Assembly (NCBI RefSeq): GCF_000429325.1
Contig: NZ_AUBQ01000003.1
Span: forward strand, 496,001 to 560,000
Length of the DNA stretch: 64,000 nucleotides
DNA from: Fundidesulfovibrio putealis DSM 16056
Lineage (GTDB): Bacteria; Desulfobacterota; Desulfovibrionia; Desulfovibrionales; Desulfovibrionaceae
Direction of reading: 5' to 3'
The position numbers and the translations under genes are program-made. The first letter of the stretch is position 1; each line of letters opens with the position of its first letter. The notes beneath the pieces were generated by a model. It saw nothing but the letters and a program-made list of their open reading frames with translations, did not search any database and was not told the origin of the DNA. Of this stretch, positions 20,709 to 62,105 are shown piece by piece.

Positions 20709-21115
20709 GGGATGCCTCCGGCGGCCAGAGAGGAAACTTTTTTCCAAAAAGTTTCCTCTCTGGACTCTCCTTCAAAAACTTTTAAGTAGCTTCGCGGGGT
20801 GGCGCGATAAGCCGTCGTGTCGTGGGCTGAAGGCAGGGGGCTGGGGGTTGTTCCGTCCACGCCATGCGCGGCGGGCTCGAACCGATGTGAAGACGATTCG
20901 TCGCCCGCCGCGCATGGCGCGTCCGTGACAACCCCCAGCCCCCTGCCGGAGTCACCAGACAGGTATGCGAATTCCACATGGGACGCGGCAACGTGCTTGG
21001 CCCGGAACACAGCCCCGCGCAGGTATGCGAAGCTAACTGAGGGTCCAGGGGGATCATCCCCCTGGCGGGAGAGTGCAGAGAGGGCGGAGCCCTCTTTGCC
21101 CGCCGGAGGCATCCC
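20709..21115. repeat. Hairpin-rich dispersed element, copy 1, with 16-bp terminal inverted repeats
   Basis: The 407-base element is bounded by perfect 16-bp inverted repeats (20709-20724 GGGATGCCTCCGGCGG; complement at 21100-21115). Inside it are: hairpin A, an 18-bp stem with loop TCC (20725-20763); a shared spacer 20764-20796; hairpin B, with a 20-bp outer stem (20832-20851/20928-20947), a 9-nt internal loop on each side, a 16-bp inner stem (20861-20876/20903-20918) and a 26-nt loop (20877-20902); a direct repeat AGGTATGCGAA at 20961 and 21021; a 9-bp hairpin at 21045-21065; and a 7-bp hairpin at 21079-21095. No coding sequence and no clear target duplication were seen. A second copy is at 61888-62105. 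Confidence 0.85.
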
Positions 21116-30291: not shown

Positions 30292-31404
30292 CTACTCTCC
30301 CCGGTGCACCTGCTCGAACACGTCCAGGGTCTTTTGGGCGGTGTCGCGCCAGGAGAAGCGGCGCGCGTTGGCGCGGCCCTTTTGCGTCAAACTTTCGCGC
30401 AGTGCTGGGCCGGTCTGGGCGTCGGCCACATCGGCCAGGGCCTTGGAGATTCCGGGGATGTCCAGTGGGTCGATCATAAGCGCGCTGTCGCCCGCCACTT
30501 CCGGCAGGCTTGTGGCCGTGGAGCAGATCACCGGCGCGCCCACGGCTTGGGCCTCCAGCACGGGCAGGCCGAAGCCCTCGAAAAGCGACGGGAACACGTA
30601 GGCCAGACAGGCCGCGTACAGCGCGGGCATGTCCTGGCGTTCCACGTAGCCCAGGCGGTGCACCCGGTCCGCCACGCCGAGCGAGGCCACCCAGTCCTTC
30701 CAGCCGTCACCCCAGGACAATCCCCCGGTGACCACCAGGTCGGCGTCCACGCGGTCCTTCACGGCGGCAAAGGCCTCCAGCAGGGCCTTCAGGTTCTTTC
30801 GCGGCGAGATGTTGCCCGTGTACAGGAAGAAGGGGCGCGTCAGGCCGTGACGCCTGGCAAGGCGCATCACTTCGTCTTCGGCCACAGGCTGGTGGTACAG
30901 GTCGTCGGCGGCCAGATGCGTGACCGTGATCTTCTGGTCCGGCACGCCCAGGATGTCCACCAGATCGCGCCGGGTGTGGTCCGAGATGGCCAGCAGCCGC
31001 TCGGCCCGGCGGGCGGTGTAGGCCATGGCCCGCTTCATGTAGAGGGTGTCCGCGAAGCGGTACATGCGTTGGTCGCCGTGGAAGTAGCCCAGGTCCATCA
31101 TGGCGGCCACGGCCTTGCAGGGCACGCGCGGCGGCATGTTGGAGGACGGGAAGAAGGCCAGGTCGATGTCGTGCTTCTTGAGTGCGGCGGGCAGCTTCAG
31201 CCAGTCGAAGAGCAGACGGTTGGAGCAGTAAAGCGACACCTCTTCAGCACCGGGGAAGGAGCCGAAGTACTGCACCTGGGAATGCATGAGCACGTAGGTG
31301 TTGCGGGTGTCGATGGCCAGCAGCTCGTTCAGGAGGCTGACCAGGTATTCCTTCACGCCTCCGGAGGCGTACTCCAGGCTTCGGCAGCTGATGGCTATGC
31401 GCAT
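30292..31404 (-). CDS. Glycosyltransferase family 1/4
   Basis: A 370-residue GT-B enzyme. The N-terminal half opens MRIAISCRSLEYASGGVKEYL; the C-terminal donor-binding half shows FFLYTGNISPRKNLKALLEAF and the motif [26 protein letters not shown], with the acidic pair in EGFGLPVLE. The start at 31404 leaves no obvious ribosome site; an upstream in-frame start adds 20 residues. It follows the reactivation-domain gene by 56 bases and may be the last gene of that operon by read-through, but functionally it resembles the polysaccharide enzymes further on. Confidence 0.85.
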   Translation of the reverse strand: MRIAISCRSLEYASGGVKEYLVSLLNELLAIDTRNTYVLMHSQVQYFGSFPGAEEVSLYCSNRLLFDWLKLPAALKKHDIDLAFFPSSNMPPRVPCKAVAAMMDLGYFHGDQRMYRFADTLYMKRAMAYTARRAERLLAISDHTRRDLVDILGVPDQKITVTHLAADDLYHQPVAEDEVMRLARRHGLTRPFFLYTGNISPRKNLKALLEAFAAVKDRVDADLVVTGGLSWGDGWKDWVASLGVADRVHRLGYVERQDMPALYAACLAYVFPSLFEGFGLPVLEAQAVGAPVICSTATSLPEVAGDSALMIDPLDIPGISKALADVADAQTGPALRESLTQKGRANARRFSWRDTAQKTLDVFEQVHRGE

Positions 31405-39689: not shown

Positions 39690-40838
39690 CTACTTCCCCG
39701 CCGCCTCGCGCAGCACGCGCCACAGGGTTTCGCCCGCGCGGTCCCAGCGGTACTTGGAGGACTGCACGAACCCCTTGGCCACCATCTGCTTGCGCAGGTC
39801 CGGTTCGTCCAGGATGCTGGCGATCTTCACGGCCAGATCTTCGGGCGACTGCGGATCGAAGGGCAAGCCCGCGTCGCCGGAGACCTCGGGCAGGCTTGTG
39901 GCCTGGGCGTAGATCACGGGCGCGCCGCTGGACTGGGCCTCCACCACGGGAAGGCCGAAGCCTTCATAAAGCGACGGGAAAACGTAGGCCAGGGCCAGCC
40001 GGTAGGCCTGGCAGAGGTCGGCCTCGGGCAGGTAGCCCAGGCAGCGGACCTTGTCCTCGGGGAAGCCTTCGGGCAGCGACGCCTTCAGGGCCTCCTGGTC
40101 GCCGAAACCGGCCACGGCCAGCACCGGGATGTCGCGCCCGAGCTTGCGCAAGATATCCAGGGCCTGGGGCACCACGCGCAGGTTCTTGTGGGGCTGGAGG
40201 TTCCCGGCGGTCAGCAGGAACGGCGTGCGCAGGTTCATGCGCTCGCGGAAATCGTCGGCCAGATGGGCCTCGTCCTCGCGCGGGGGGCGAAAATGCGCCA
40301 TGTCCACGCCGTAGCTTGGCAGCACTTCCAGCTTGTTCGCCACCTTGCCGAACACGCGCAGCATCTCGTTCCTGGAGGCGTGGGTGCCGGTGATGGCCCG
40401 GTCGGCGCGCTTCAAGCCCGCCTTGTGGCGCAGGGTGAACACGGTGCGGATGTGCCACGCGAGAGTTTCCGGGTGGGCGTGCCAGAGCACGTCGTGGTAC
40501 ATGCCCACGGCCTTGCCGGGCAGGAGCGGCGGAAAAAGACCGTCTGGCGAGAAAAAAACATCCTGGGGATTCATCAGGCGTTGCAGGAGCATGCCCGTCT
40601 GCTGCCAGGCGTAAAGAGACGGCACGTTGGCGGTGACGGCGCGGGCCTTGCCCTGGGCCACCAGATCAAGCGCGACCGGGTTCACCAGCGGCTTCCCGGC
40701 GAAAAGGGTGAAGCGCGCAGAGTCGCCCGCAGCCTCCGCCAGATGCGGCAGGATGCACTCCAGGTAACGGCCTATGCCGGTGCGGTAGGGATAGGCCAGG
40801 GGGCTAGCGTCGATGCCGACGCGCAAAACCTGTGGCAT
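39690..40838 (-). CDS. Glycosyltransferase family 1/4
   Basis: A 382-residue GT-B enzyme. N-terminal VLRVGIDASPLAYPYRTGIGRYL; C-terminal TPFLLTAGNLQPHKNLRVVPQALDIL and AYVFPSLYEGFGLPVVEAQSSGAPVI. It is transcribed divergently from the Wzm permease, with 57 bases between the two starts, and is followed by the GT2 gene. Confidence 0.9.
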   Translation of the reverse strand: MPQVLRVGIDASPLAYPYRTGIGRYLECILPHLAEAAGDSARFTLFAGKPLVNPVALDLVAQGKARAVTANVPSLYAWQQTGMLLQRLMNPQDVFFSPDGLFPPLLPGKAVGMYHDVLWHAHPETLAWHIRTVFTLRHKAGLKRADRAITGTHASRNEMLRVFGKVANKLEVLPSYGVDMAHFRPPREDEAHLADDFRERMNLRTPFLLTAGNLQPHKNLRVVPQALDILRKLGRDIPVLAVAGFGDQEALKASLPEGFPEDKVRCLGYLPEADLCQAYRLALAYVFPSLYEGFGLPVVEAQSSGAPVIYAQATSLPEVSGDAGLPFDPQSPEDLAVKIASILDEPDLRKQMVAKGFVQSSKYRWDRAGETLWRVLREAAGK

Positions 40839-43163: not shown

Positions 43164-44813
43164 ATGAATAACGACGACTTCAAGGCGGTCATCCGCGATA
43201 TTTCCTCTGGCTTTCGGGCCGAAGCGCCGCTCCCGGCCCTGTTCGACCGGATGCTCATGATGAACCGCACCCTGTGGCGCTGGTGGGACCTGGGCTGGCG
43301 GGCGCTGCGCCGTCTGGTTCCGGGTCTGGCCGTGGACCGCCGCCCGGGCGAGAAGCCGCTCGTCGCCGTTGATCTTCTGCCGCTTCTGCCCGGCGGAGCC
43401 AACGGCGGGGCCAAGGTCTTCACGCTGAACCTGCTGGAGACCATGGCGGCCATGGCCCCGGACTGGACCTTCGTGCTGGTGGCCAGCCCGGACGTGCTGC
43501 CGGAGCTGCGCGAGATCGAGAGCGCCAACCTCACAGCCATCGCCGTGGACCGCACATGGCAGGCCAAGCCGCCAAAGAAGCTCCTGAAGCGGCCCATCGA
43601 CGTCTGGTTCTGCCCGTTCACCCGGCCCTATTTCCAGCATGAGGACATCCCGCTGGTGTCCATCATCTACGACCTGCAATACCATTACTATCCGCAGTTC
43701 TTCTCCGACGCCGAGGCGCGCGGGCGCGACCAGACCTTCCAGCTGGCGGCCAAGCGCAGCGCCCGGCTGGCCTGCATCTCGGACTACGTGCGCCAGACCG
43801 TGCTGGAGTACGGCAACCTGCCGCCCGAGAAGGTCCGGACCGTGCACATCTGCCTGCCGGAGCGCCTGTGCCTGCCGCCCGACGCCGAGATTATGGCCGC
43901 CCTTGCCCGCTTCGGCCTCACGCGCGGCAAATACCTGATTTTCCCGGCCAACTTCTGGCCCCACAAGAACCACGCCGTGCTGCTCACGGCCTTCGGGCTG
44001 CACGCGGCCGCGCACCAGGACTCCCAGCTCAAGCTGGTTTTGACCGGCGCGGACACCGGGCTGGCCGCCGAGCTCAAGCAGGCCGTGGCCGCCATGGGCC
44101 TTTCCGGGCGCGTGCTGTTCACCGGGTACGTGTCCGACGACGACCTGGGGGCGCTGACCGGCGGGGCGTTGGCGCTCATCTTCCCGTCGCTGTTCGAGGG
44201 CTACGGCATGCCCGTGGCCGAGGCCATGTCGCTTGGCGTGCCGGTGCTGTGTTCCAACGTCACCAGCCTGCCCGAAGTTGGCGGCGACGCCGTACTTTAC
44301 TTCGACCCCCGCAAGCCCGAAGACGTGGCCGCGGCCATCGCCCGCATCGAGTTCGAGCCCGGCCTTGCCGCAGACCTCGCCGCCAGGGGGCGCGCCCGCG
44401 CGGCAGAGCTTGGCGGGCCGCAACACATGGCCCAGGCCTACATCGACCTGCTGGACGAGGCCATGCGCGGCCTGGGCGGACAGAGCGCGGTGTGCGAGGG
44501 CGTCTGTCCGGACGGCGCGGTGTCGCCCCGCGTGTTCGCGGCTTTCGGCCCGGCGTCGGGCAGGCAGTTCATCGAGGCCCGGTTCGCAAACCACGGCTCG
44601 ACCGCCGTCACCTGCGAGGCCTTCCTCAACGGCAAGCTCCTGGCACCGCGCCGCACCCTGGCCCCCGGCCAGACCTTCGACATCAGGCAGCTGGCCAGCC
44701 CCTACGGCGGCTGCCTGGAGGTTGCCTTCGATTCCGCGTCCGGCATACGCTGCCTGAAGCTCGCGCTCACGGGCTCGCGCCACCACGATTTCCTCGGGAG
44801 CTCCACATGCTAA
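43164..44813 (+). CDS. Glycosyltransferase family 1/4 with C-terminal extension
   Basis: A 549-residue GT-B enzyme, about 150 residues longer than usual. The catalytic part covers residues about 60-435 (VAVDLLPLLPGGANGGAKVFTLNLL; KYLIFPANFWPHKNHAVLL; ALIFPSLFEGYGMPVAEAMSLGVPVL). The last 100 residues form a beta-rich domain (RVFAAFGPASGRQFIEARF; LKLALTGSRHHDF) that may bind carbohydrate. It starts 5 bases after the wzt stop and overlaps the next gene by 7 bases. Confidence 0.88.
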   Translation: MNNDDFKAVIRDISSGFRAEAPLPALFDRMLMMNRTLWRWWDLGWRALRRLVPGLAVDRRPGEKPLVAVDLLPLLPGGANGGAKVFTLNLLETMAAMAPDWTFVLVASPDVLPELREIESANLTAIAVDRTWQAKPPKKLLKRPIDVWFCPFTRPYFQHEDIPLVSIIYDLQYHYYPQFFSDAEARGRDQTFQLAAKRSARLACISDYVRQTVLEYGNLPPEKVRTVHICLPERLCLPPDAEIMAALARFGLTRGKYLIFPANFWPHKNHAVLLTAFGLHAAAHQDSQLKLVLTGADTGLAAELKQAVAAMGLSGRVLFTGYVSDDDLGALTGGALALIFPSLFEGYGMPVAEAMSLGVPVLCSNVTSLPEVGGDAVLYFDPRKPEDVAAAIARIEFEPGLAADLAARGRARAAELGGPQHMAQAYIDLLDEAMRGLGGQSAVCEGVCPDGAVSPRVFAAFGPASGRQFIEARFANHGSTAVTCEAFLNGKLLAPRRTLAPGQTFDIRQLASPYGGCLEVAFDSASGIRCLKLALTGSRHHDFLGSSTC

Positions 44814-45680: not shown

Positions 45681-46820
45681 ATGCGCGTAGGCTTCGACGT
45701 CAGCCAGACGGGCGCGGGCAAGGCGGGCTGCGGCTACCTGGCCTACGGGCTGGTGAACGCGCTGGCGTCGCGCGACACGCAGTTCGTGTTCTATCCGCAC
45801 TTCGGCGACCTGTACTGGGAGCCGAACCCCAAGGCCTGCGCGTGTCCGGGGAACGCCTGTACGATGGGGCCGACGTTCCGCTGGTTCGAAAAGAGCAAGA
45901 CCTTCTGGCGCAACCCCCCGGCGGACTTCGAGGCGCGCCTCGGCAACCCGGACATCGTGCATTCCAACAATTTTTTCTGCCCCACGGGCCTCAGCAAAGC
46001 CAAGCTGGTCTATACGCTTTACGACCTGTCATTCTTGGAAAACCCGCAGTGGACCACGGAGCAGAACCGCGTGGGCTGCCTGGAGGGCGTGTTCGGCGCG
46101 AGCCTGCGCGCGGACTTCATTCTCAGCATCTCGAAGGCCAGCCTGGACCACTTCCTGCGCATCTACCCGCACTACCCGCGCGAGCGCACCGCCATCATGC
46201 ACCTGGCCAGCCGCTTTACGGCGGACAGCCCCATGCGCGCGCCCAAGCGTTTGCGGGGCGTGACGCCGGGCGGGTTCTGGCTGTGCGTTGGCACCATCGA
46301 GCCGCGCAAGAACCAGAAGGCCCTGTTCGAGGCGCTGGCCCAAATGCCGGGCAAGACGCCGCTGGTGCTGGCTGGCGGGCGCGGCTGGCTCATGGAGGAC
46401 ATGGCCCGCACGGTGAACGAGTTGGGCTTGAGCTCCCGGGTGAAGCTGACCGGCTACGTGGACGACGCCGAGCTGGCCTGGCTGTACGCCAACTGCCTGG
46501 GCTTCGTGTACCCGTCGCTGTTCGAGGGCTTCGGCCTGCCGGTGCTGGAGGCCATGAGCCTGGGCGCGCCGGTGATAACGTCCAACGTGTCCAGCCTGCC
46601 GGAAGTGGCCGGGGACGCGGCGCTGCTGGTCGATCCGCTGGATACCCGGGCCATCGCCGAGGCCATGGCGCGGCTTGAGGGAGACGCGACGCTGCGCGGG
46701 GAACTCAAGGCCAAAGGCGTCAAGCGGGCCATGGAGTTCAGCTGGGACGCGGCTGCGCAGGTGGCGCTCACAGCATATGAGACGGTGTGTCGATTAAATA
46801 AGGTCGTTTCTTGTCTGTAA
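45681..46820 (+). CDS. Glycosyltransferase family 1/4
   Basis: A 379-residue GT-B enzyme with [26 protein letters not shown] at the start and [21 protein letters not shown] and [40 protein letters not shown] in the donor half. It starts 22 bases after the GT2 stop. The last few codons (from about 46785) switch abruptly to AT-rich sequence, at the edge of the insertion that holds the next gene, so its original C-terminus may have been replaced. Confidence 0.9.
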
Positions 46821-61874: not shown

Positions 61875-61887
61875 GAGTTTGAAGAGT

Positions 61888-62105
61888 GCCTCCGGCGGCC
61901 AGAGAGGAAACTTTTTGGAAAAAAGTTTCCTCTCTGGACTCTCCTTCAAAAACTTTTAAGTAGCTTCGCGTCCCAGCGCGGCAGACTGAAGTTTCAGCGG
62001 GGGCTGGGTGCTGTCCCGAACGGGTTCTGGCGGGCGGGCGACGAATCGTCTTCAAATCGGTTCTAGCCCGCCCGCCAGGACACGGACGGGACAGCACCCA
62101 GCCCC
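61888..62105. repeat. Hairpin-rich dispersed element, copy 2
   Basis: It shares with copy 1 (20709-21115) the left end TGCCTCCGGCGG, hairpin A (18-bp stem, 61899-61916/61920-61937) and the spacer 61938-61970, which is identical to 20764-20796. Loop A reads GGA, the complement of TCC in copy 1. Hairpin B has outer arms 62000-62018/62087-62105 (19 bp), inner arms 62027-62039/62066-62078 (13 bp) and a 26-nt loop at 62040-62065 that matches the reverse complement of the copy 1 loop at 24 of 26 positions. The right part (direct repeats, 21045 and 21079 hairpins, right terminal repeat) is absent. It sits between the thioredoxin-like gene and the acetolactate synthase leader. Confidence 0.85.

Follow-up and report, generated by a model that had tools for sequence, protein, structure and literature searches.

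A composite palindromic repeat at gene ends in Fundidesulfovibrio putealis, with inverting hairpins and end units of possible intrastrand-triplex type

What kind of intergenic element has perfect inverted repeats at its ends and hairpins that lie the opposite way round in a second copy? This question was raised by positions 20709-21115 of the window (the whole stretch of 64,000 nucleotides of Fundidesulfovibrio putealis that was analysed). This first copy begins with the left terminal inverted repeat GGGATGCCTCCGGCGG (20709-20724, plus strand), whose core GCCTCCGGCGG is, by sequence and family counts, a family-wide end motif, and it finishes with the right terminal inverted repeat (21100-21115, minus strand), the two being perfect 16-nt inverted repeats when checked on the sequence. 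Between them on the plus strand lie a hairpin, H1 (20725-20763), with 18-bp arms and the loop TCC, which is inverted relative to the GG/GA loops elsewhere among the copies examined; a 33-nt spacer (20764-20796); a forward compound hairpin, H2 (20832-20947), whose arms (20832-20876 and 20903-20947) are 89% complementary around a 26-nt apical loop (20877-20902); and a genome-repeated hairpin of the right module, CCAGGGGGATCATCCCCCTGG (21045-21065). The right end unit (21067-21099) is read on the minus strand as a hairpin (21099-21075) followed by ACTCTCCC (21074-21067). Copy 2 consists of the left end unit motif TGCCTCCGGCGG (61887-61898), H1 with the loop GGA (61899-61937) and the spacer (61938-61970), all on the plus strand, followed by a reversed H2 (62000-62105, minus strand) with 90% complementary arms (62000-62039 and 62066-62105) and its loop at 62040-62065; no right end unit follows this H2. 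A preliminary description had reported the shared left end, H1, spacer and compound H2 at the two loci, the perfect 16-bp ends of copy 1, and loops reverse-complemented between copies around a spacer of constant orientation, and all of this was confirmed on the sequence: the 33-nt spacers are identical and unchanged in orientation, the two H1 hairpins are exact 39-nt reverse complements (arms kept, loop inverted) and the H2 loops agree at 24 of 26 positions after inversion only. On folding, both loci were far below their shuffles (z of -15.8 for copy 1 and -11.2 for copy 2, no shuffle being equally low). The string GTAG is present in the spacer of both copies. The window also holds further direct or inverted repeats (30434-30667, 39873-39992, 44176-44351 and 46436-46679; 120-234 nt, 70-83% similar), which by eye are unrelated to the H1/H2 element.

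A search with the 26-nt H2 loop (up to 3 mismatches), which the preliminary description had proposed for the genome and its relatives, found 56 occurrences in the window's own genome (G000; 4.7 Mb, 29 contigs, 99.99% complete) and 24 in a close relative with an incomplete genome (G006; 66% complete), and a backward-read control pattern gave 0 matches. Related loci in G000 number dozens as a lower bound, 40 of 210 and 40 of 225 candidates having been scored for the copy lists. Among the 84,980 species of a contig database, from which records of the window's own genome were possibly excluded, the exact H2 loop form was found only in 16 stretches of the MAG "Desulfovibrionaceae bacterium isolate X3_MetaBAT.36". 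A query with the left half of copy 1 (252 nt; E 1e-10, 59 genomes searched) gave matches, mostly to the left end alone, in 4 of the 6 genus mates and in 2 other genomes of the family, and the end motif GGCCGCCGGAGGC is present in 223 of 288 family genomes, with few occurrences in many of them (184 + 179 in genome G285 against 2 + 3 for the backward control, and 80 + 78 in G000 against 0 + 0). H2 is so far known from F. putealis and its close relative, and the end unit is Desulfovibrionaceae-wide. The motif is most abundant in one genus group, g25, for example in G285 with its 363 exact copies; the first 50 on contig C1 of this genome, among the matches listed, are all on the plus strand and the strand totals are balanced, a run which hints at a replichore-linked strand bias. 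In the portions of the literature covered by our search, no publication describing this repeat was found, and the exact end sequence occurs there in 4 papers, all with unrelated titles.

The copies are mosaics, built of an end unit with a hairpin (H1 or other types), a spacer, an interior and often an inverted end unit, and the interior may be a short stretch, H2 either way round, more hairpins or a gene. Where orthologous loci could be aligned between G000 and G006 (7 pairs, an eighth being unmappable), the outer flanks match closely and all 7 pairs differ in at least one module; H1 and spacer switched type jointly in 3 of these (L004/L080, L006/L070 and L021/L073), and H2 is present in G006 and absent from G000 at two loci (L082/L017 and L076/L023). 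Gaps of at least 10 nt were counted in 16 of the 18 same-orientation pairs (L083 and L089 end at contig ends) together with 3 pairs with known interior differences, giving 25 gaps in 8.9 kb of element versus 9 in 34.8 kb of flank, which is largely coding and hence a rough control. Such a gap lay inside the element in 15 of the 19 pairs, and leaving aside the 3 pairs already known to differ gave 16 gaps in 7.7 kb of element versus 9 in 28.6 kb of flank. Genes were also seen beside or between modules: in G006 a nucleotidyltransferase/HepT-like gene pair, of toxin-antitoxin type by family, lies between two elements (L077:1825-2578) and is missing at the orthologous locus L003 of G000, a left and a right module enclose a small lipoprotein-like gene with no Pfam match (L015:1053-1391) and a methyltransferase gene starts just behind a left module (L030:1740-2465). 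At the latter two loci the repeats may be sites at which genes are exchanged.

The two genes bordering copy 1 are adjacent in all of G001 to G005, with no element and almost no gap in G001 and G003, a single short end unit in G004 and G005, and other sequence in G002. For neither window copy was a comparison with the close relative possible: the right-hand gene of copy 1 (present in G001 to G005) has no more than weaker paralogs in the incomplete G006, and the left flank of copy 2 has no match among the six genus mates. The junctions lacking an element, the loci that differ in the presence of H2 (L017/L082 and L023/L076), the many dispersed copies and the perfect ends of copy 1 are what might be expected of a non-autonomous transposable element (MITE) that an unrecognised transposase had moved and into which H2, as a separate hairpin element, had been inserted either way. 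Taking the general properties of MITEs and BIMEs as background, copy 1 is MITE-like in its 16-bp perfect terminal repeats and the usual copy in being without coding capacity, but copy 2 has no right end, the end units are family-wide and also occur alone, as at the junction of copy 1 in G004 and G005, and no match to the Y1/RAYT transposase family (PF01797) was found in G000 by a search whose control was positive in 5 of 14 genomes. This leaves the transposable-element reading of the preliminary description unproven, and we consider it unlikely, also in view of the orientation of H2.

Beside the same left flank (SL2), H2 is forward in 9 copies and reversed in 12, a set of 21 out of 30 rows from which 9 forward rows with 7-8 flank errors (SL1-like) had been dropped and in which the reversed row L090 was kept despite 8 errors, as the ortholog of L105. 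H2 cores of opposite orientation agreed at 0.668 directly and at 0.822 after inversion (same-orientation pairs, 0.845), and the SL2 flank agreed between orientations at 0.77 versus 0.57 when shuffled. In three pairs (L004/L021, L026/L021 and L084/L088) the flanks match on both sides and H2 is inverted with its asymmetric internal loop included, which places the breakpoints within the outer stem or immediately outside it; independent insertions of a separate element would not readily give flanks that match on both sides in either orientation. The preliminary description had envisaged that only the loops invert, each between the arms of its own hairpin. Inversion was indeed seen, but in H2 it takes in the whole hairpin, beyond the 26-nt loop, and inversion of a hairpin between its own arms holds for H2 and not for H1, as the H1 loop is flipped in copy 1 alone (1 of 22 distinct H1 at loci of G000, none of 11 at those of G006, short-loop H1 only being matched). 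Loops in one fixed orientation and arms that do not covary, which it had named as the contrary outcome, were thus found in part: H1 is fixed in the other copies examined, but H2 is not fixed and its arms covary, as described below.

A tree of the 21 H2 cores, which is weakly resolved and includes near-identical orthologs, needs 4 orientation changes, at least 2 of them forced by well-supported branches, and cores of like orientation group together on it (8-9 of 500 shuffles being as low). Among the 24 H2 copies of G006, 18 have kept their orientation relative to the flanks, 2 lie within larger inversions and isolated flips number 0 (the calls at L083, L089, L096, L098 and L135 being made mainly on one flank); the others are 2 without H2 in G000, L077, which is not a homologous copy, and L136, which is without an ortholog among the loci compared. 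H2 inversion is slow. Larger units are inverted as well, one of about 0.5 kb between hairpin ends (L087/L104) and one of about 1.3 kb between the two species (L012:566-1872 and L079:718-2073), which is bounded by the same hairpin ends and carries a family-2 glycosyltransferase gene and an H2 element. Both H2 orientations between matching flanks could also be produced by a programmed inversion switch (phase variation) in which a recombinase acts on the hairpin arms. This is very improbable given that orientation is conserved at 18 of 20 orthologous H2, the other two having moved with a larger unit, and that neither window copy has sigma-70 promoter-like sites above shuffles.

By a simple ORF-based count in G000, 23 H2 junctions are convergent, 24 same-strand and 3 divergent (50 determined, with no call at 4 more), and therefore copies avoid divergent junctions; one of the 3 divergent junctions, L001, has both neighbours on the minus strand in a separate reading. 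The gene names livF and liv operon are taken from general background. The sequence flanking the element ends on the outside is purine-rich for about 20 nt (58 ends). The inner stem of H2 was found to covary, with 450 of 520 cells Watson-Crick across 40 distinct arm pairs compared to a mean of 370 and a maximum of 399 for re-dealt right arms, and with changes on both sides at 5 of 13 positions (77 of 80 H2 were used in the arm analyses and 68 in one mispair count), in agreement with the paired arm changes reported earlier. Selection that maintains pairing would give this result, and so would one arm being copied again and again from its partner. Because the fixed internal loop obscured an arm-identity measure (0.78 within versus 0.75 between elements), the Watson-Crick cell count was used in its place. 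Mispairs of the G.T and A.C kinds numbered 9 versus 43 in the inner stem and 30 versus 59 in the outer, but as many copies share inherited changes these counts were not used to decide between RNA and DNA.

The rarity of divergent neighbours, the purine-rich flanks and the arm covariation would all be compatible with a structured RNA or a bidirectional transcription terminator at gene ends, in which hairpins are conserved for pairing in the transcript. Terminator-like sites were not above shuffles in the two window copies scanned, however (1 versus 0.7, and 1 versus 0.6, the latter site lying outside the element), and against the structured RNA that the preliminary description had suggested, no Rfam family reached its gathering threshold in the window or in the 20 loci tried, and both H2 orientations persist. 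The last point suggests a strand-symmetric constraint acting at the DNA level. We think an RNA or terminator function quite unlikely, a shade more so than the MITE. Among the models tried, the Clostridiales-2 RNA (RF02937) aligned over its full length to 21031-21113, but at 29.1 bits against a gathering score of 58.6 and with agreement mainly in one GC-rich hairpin, and the matches to several microRNA models were dismissed as likeness between hairpins. Roles for the element in transposition, switching or termination are unsupported here.

The end units have a further regularity. In the commonest H1, the purine tract GAGAGGAA of the 5' arm (20728-20735 in copy 1) is followed after the hairpin by a spacer that starts with A-CTCTCCTT (20765-20772 for CTCTCCTT), and CTCTCCTT is the parallel Hoogsteen complement of the tract, so that by sequence match the two are proposed as the duplex purine strand and the third strand of an intrastrand triplex. 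A second H1 type has GAGGAGAA with CTCCTCTC (7 of 8 match) and a third has GGAGGAAA with CCTCCTTT; the ACTCTCCC of the right end unit is the parallel Hoogsteen complement of its arm save for one mutated position, and end units of other genera show the same relation of tract and tail. Both window copies thus have what would be an intrastrand-triplex (PIT-type) order, with purine tract, pyrimidine partner and third-strand tract on one strand. A third strand that must stay beside its arm would explain why the spacer keeps its orientation when the loops flip.

Tract and tail vary together. Across 44 distinct pairs, 257 of 320 positions match, compared to a mean of 167 and a maximum of 196 for letter-permuted tails and to 165 for a direct copy of the pyrimidine arm; across 30 distinct purine tracts, 178 of 220 positions match, compared to a mean of 114 and a maximum of 138 for swapped tails (both sets include the pairs that prompted the third-strand idea). 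Genomes fetched after the idea and before the register was fixed gave 85 of 100, with diagnostic letters of 34 mirror, 2 direct and 7 other. In two held-out genomes (G285 and G235), with the rule fixed beforehand, 127 of 189 positions matched, compared to 110 on average and 126 at most for permuted tails, and the diagnostic letters were 36 mirror, 25 direct copy and 11 other; taken singly, 181 of 5000 permutations were equally good for G285 and 8 of 5000 for G235. In this scoring of the later genomes, 46 of 132 end motifs, having no hairpin, were left out. This weaker result is partly due to the register of G285 being displaced by one base, which the rule had not provided for. Once three registers were permitted, the swap control was passed by the genus loci (169 of 237; swap maximum 157, direct copy 137), by the genomes fetched before the register was fixed (92 of 120; swaps at most 85, direct copy 81) and by G285 (201 of 254; swaps at most 191), where direct copy gave 193 and the tracts are too symmetric, so that G285 cannot separate mirror from direct. 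G235 failed it (38 of 79, with 374 of 2000 swaps as good). Judged by these counts, third-strand covariation is strong in the window's genus and in the genomes fetched before the register was fixed, ambiguous in G285 and unsupported in G235.

Taken as a whole, the data are best explained, with a probability which we put at roughly 0.55, by a composite REP/BIME-like mosaic of intrastrand-triplex-type units that sit at gene ends and are reshaped by template switching or recombination. Its building blocks would be the family-wide hairpin end units, H2 and exchangeable interior pieces, sometimes a whole gene. The tract behind the hairpin of an end unit could occupy the groove of that hairpin as a third strand, and the end units probably stall polymerases or expose single strands where genes end. 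Template switching or recombination between inverted arms would then invert the hairpins and keep the arms alike, and the same processes would swap modules between copies and invert whole units, replication trouble at the hairpins being what might drive both inversion and module exchange. Plain recombination, with no triplex, could also give the inversions and the exchange. A more specific proposal is that selection maintains the end units for the sake of an intramolecular DNA triple helix, which would form in the cell and be of some benefit to it, and that the large hairpins are fork-stalling, self-inverting modules that remodel junctions; we offer this tentatively, as a possibility on the doubtful side. 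It is a long-standing question whether living cells form DNA triplexes and whether selection acts on them. The matched changes across many copies suggest, as far as sequence can, that evolution may preserve a three-stranded fold, and should selection for a triplex be true, the co-change of arm and third strand across genera would be comparative-genomic evidence of triplex in living bacteria. With many natural variants, each allowing the third strand to be compared with its arm, the triplex question can be addressed by comparative genomics and by tail-swap mutants. Whatever the mechanism, the loci show gene junctions remodelled at repeats.

Among known systems, the mosaic resembles REP/BIME and REPIN sequences, as far as these are covered by the available parts of PMC3733652, PMC3116915 and PMC2817692, in being made of short multi-copy intergenic palindromes, in inverted pairs and in mosaic assembly, but here no Y1/RAYT transposase was found and the units are larger; the available main text of PMC3733652 does not contain "desulfo". 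The end units resemble the BoxC/TM-ECO and PIT elements in the available parts of PMC4666352 in having a hairpin and a tethered third-strand tract on one DNA strand, in their many intergenic copies and possibly in their variable loci; the same text associates triplex motifs with variable loci in E. coli. BoxC/TM-ECO is of class II in that account, whereas the order here of purine arm, pyrimidine arm and pyrimidine third strand is class III (class I on the other strand); the sequences are also different, and here the units form the ends of composite palindromic elements, with tract and tail varying jointly. The same source, in the parts available, states that BoxC and PIT elements block polymerase in vitro, cites earlier work without an in vivo effect and calls in vivo triplex evidence sparse, and "desulfo" and "deltaproteobacteria" are absent from its available main text. 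Template switching at inverted repeats, according to the available parts of PMC8794818 and PMC8604942, inverts loops or spacers and homogenises arms, and the hairpins described here are similar in having an inverted loop between arms that are still paired and homogenised. In the published cases in those parts the loops measure 4 to 8 nt and the spacer inversions comprise 2 to 5 substitutions, whereas here the whole H2 hairpin, about 110 nt long, is inverted, as are units of 0.5 and 1.3 kb, so that the hairpin inversions found here exceed these cases in size, with their flanks preserved.
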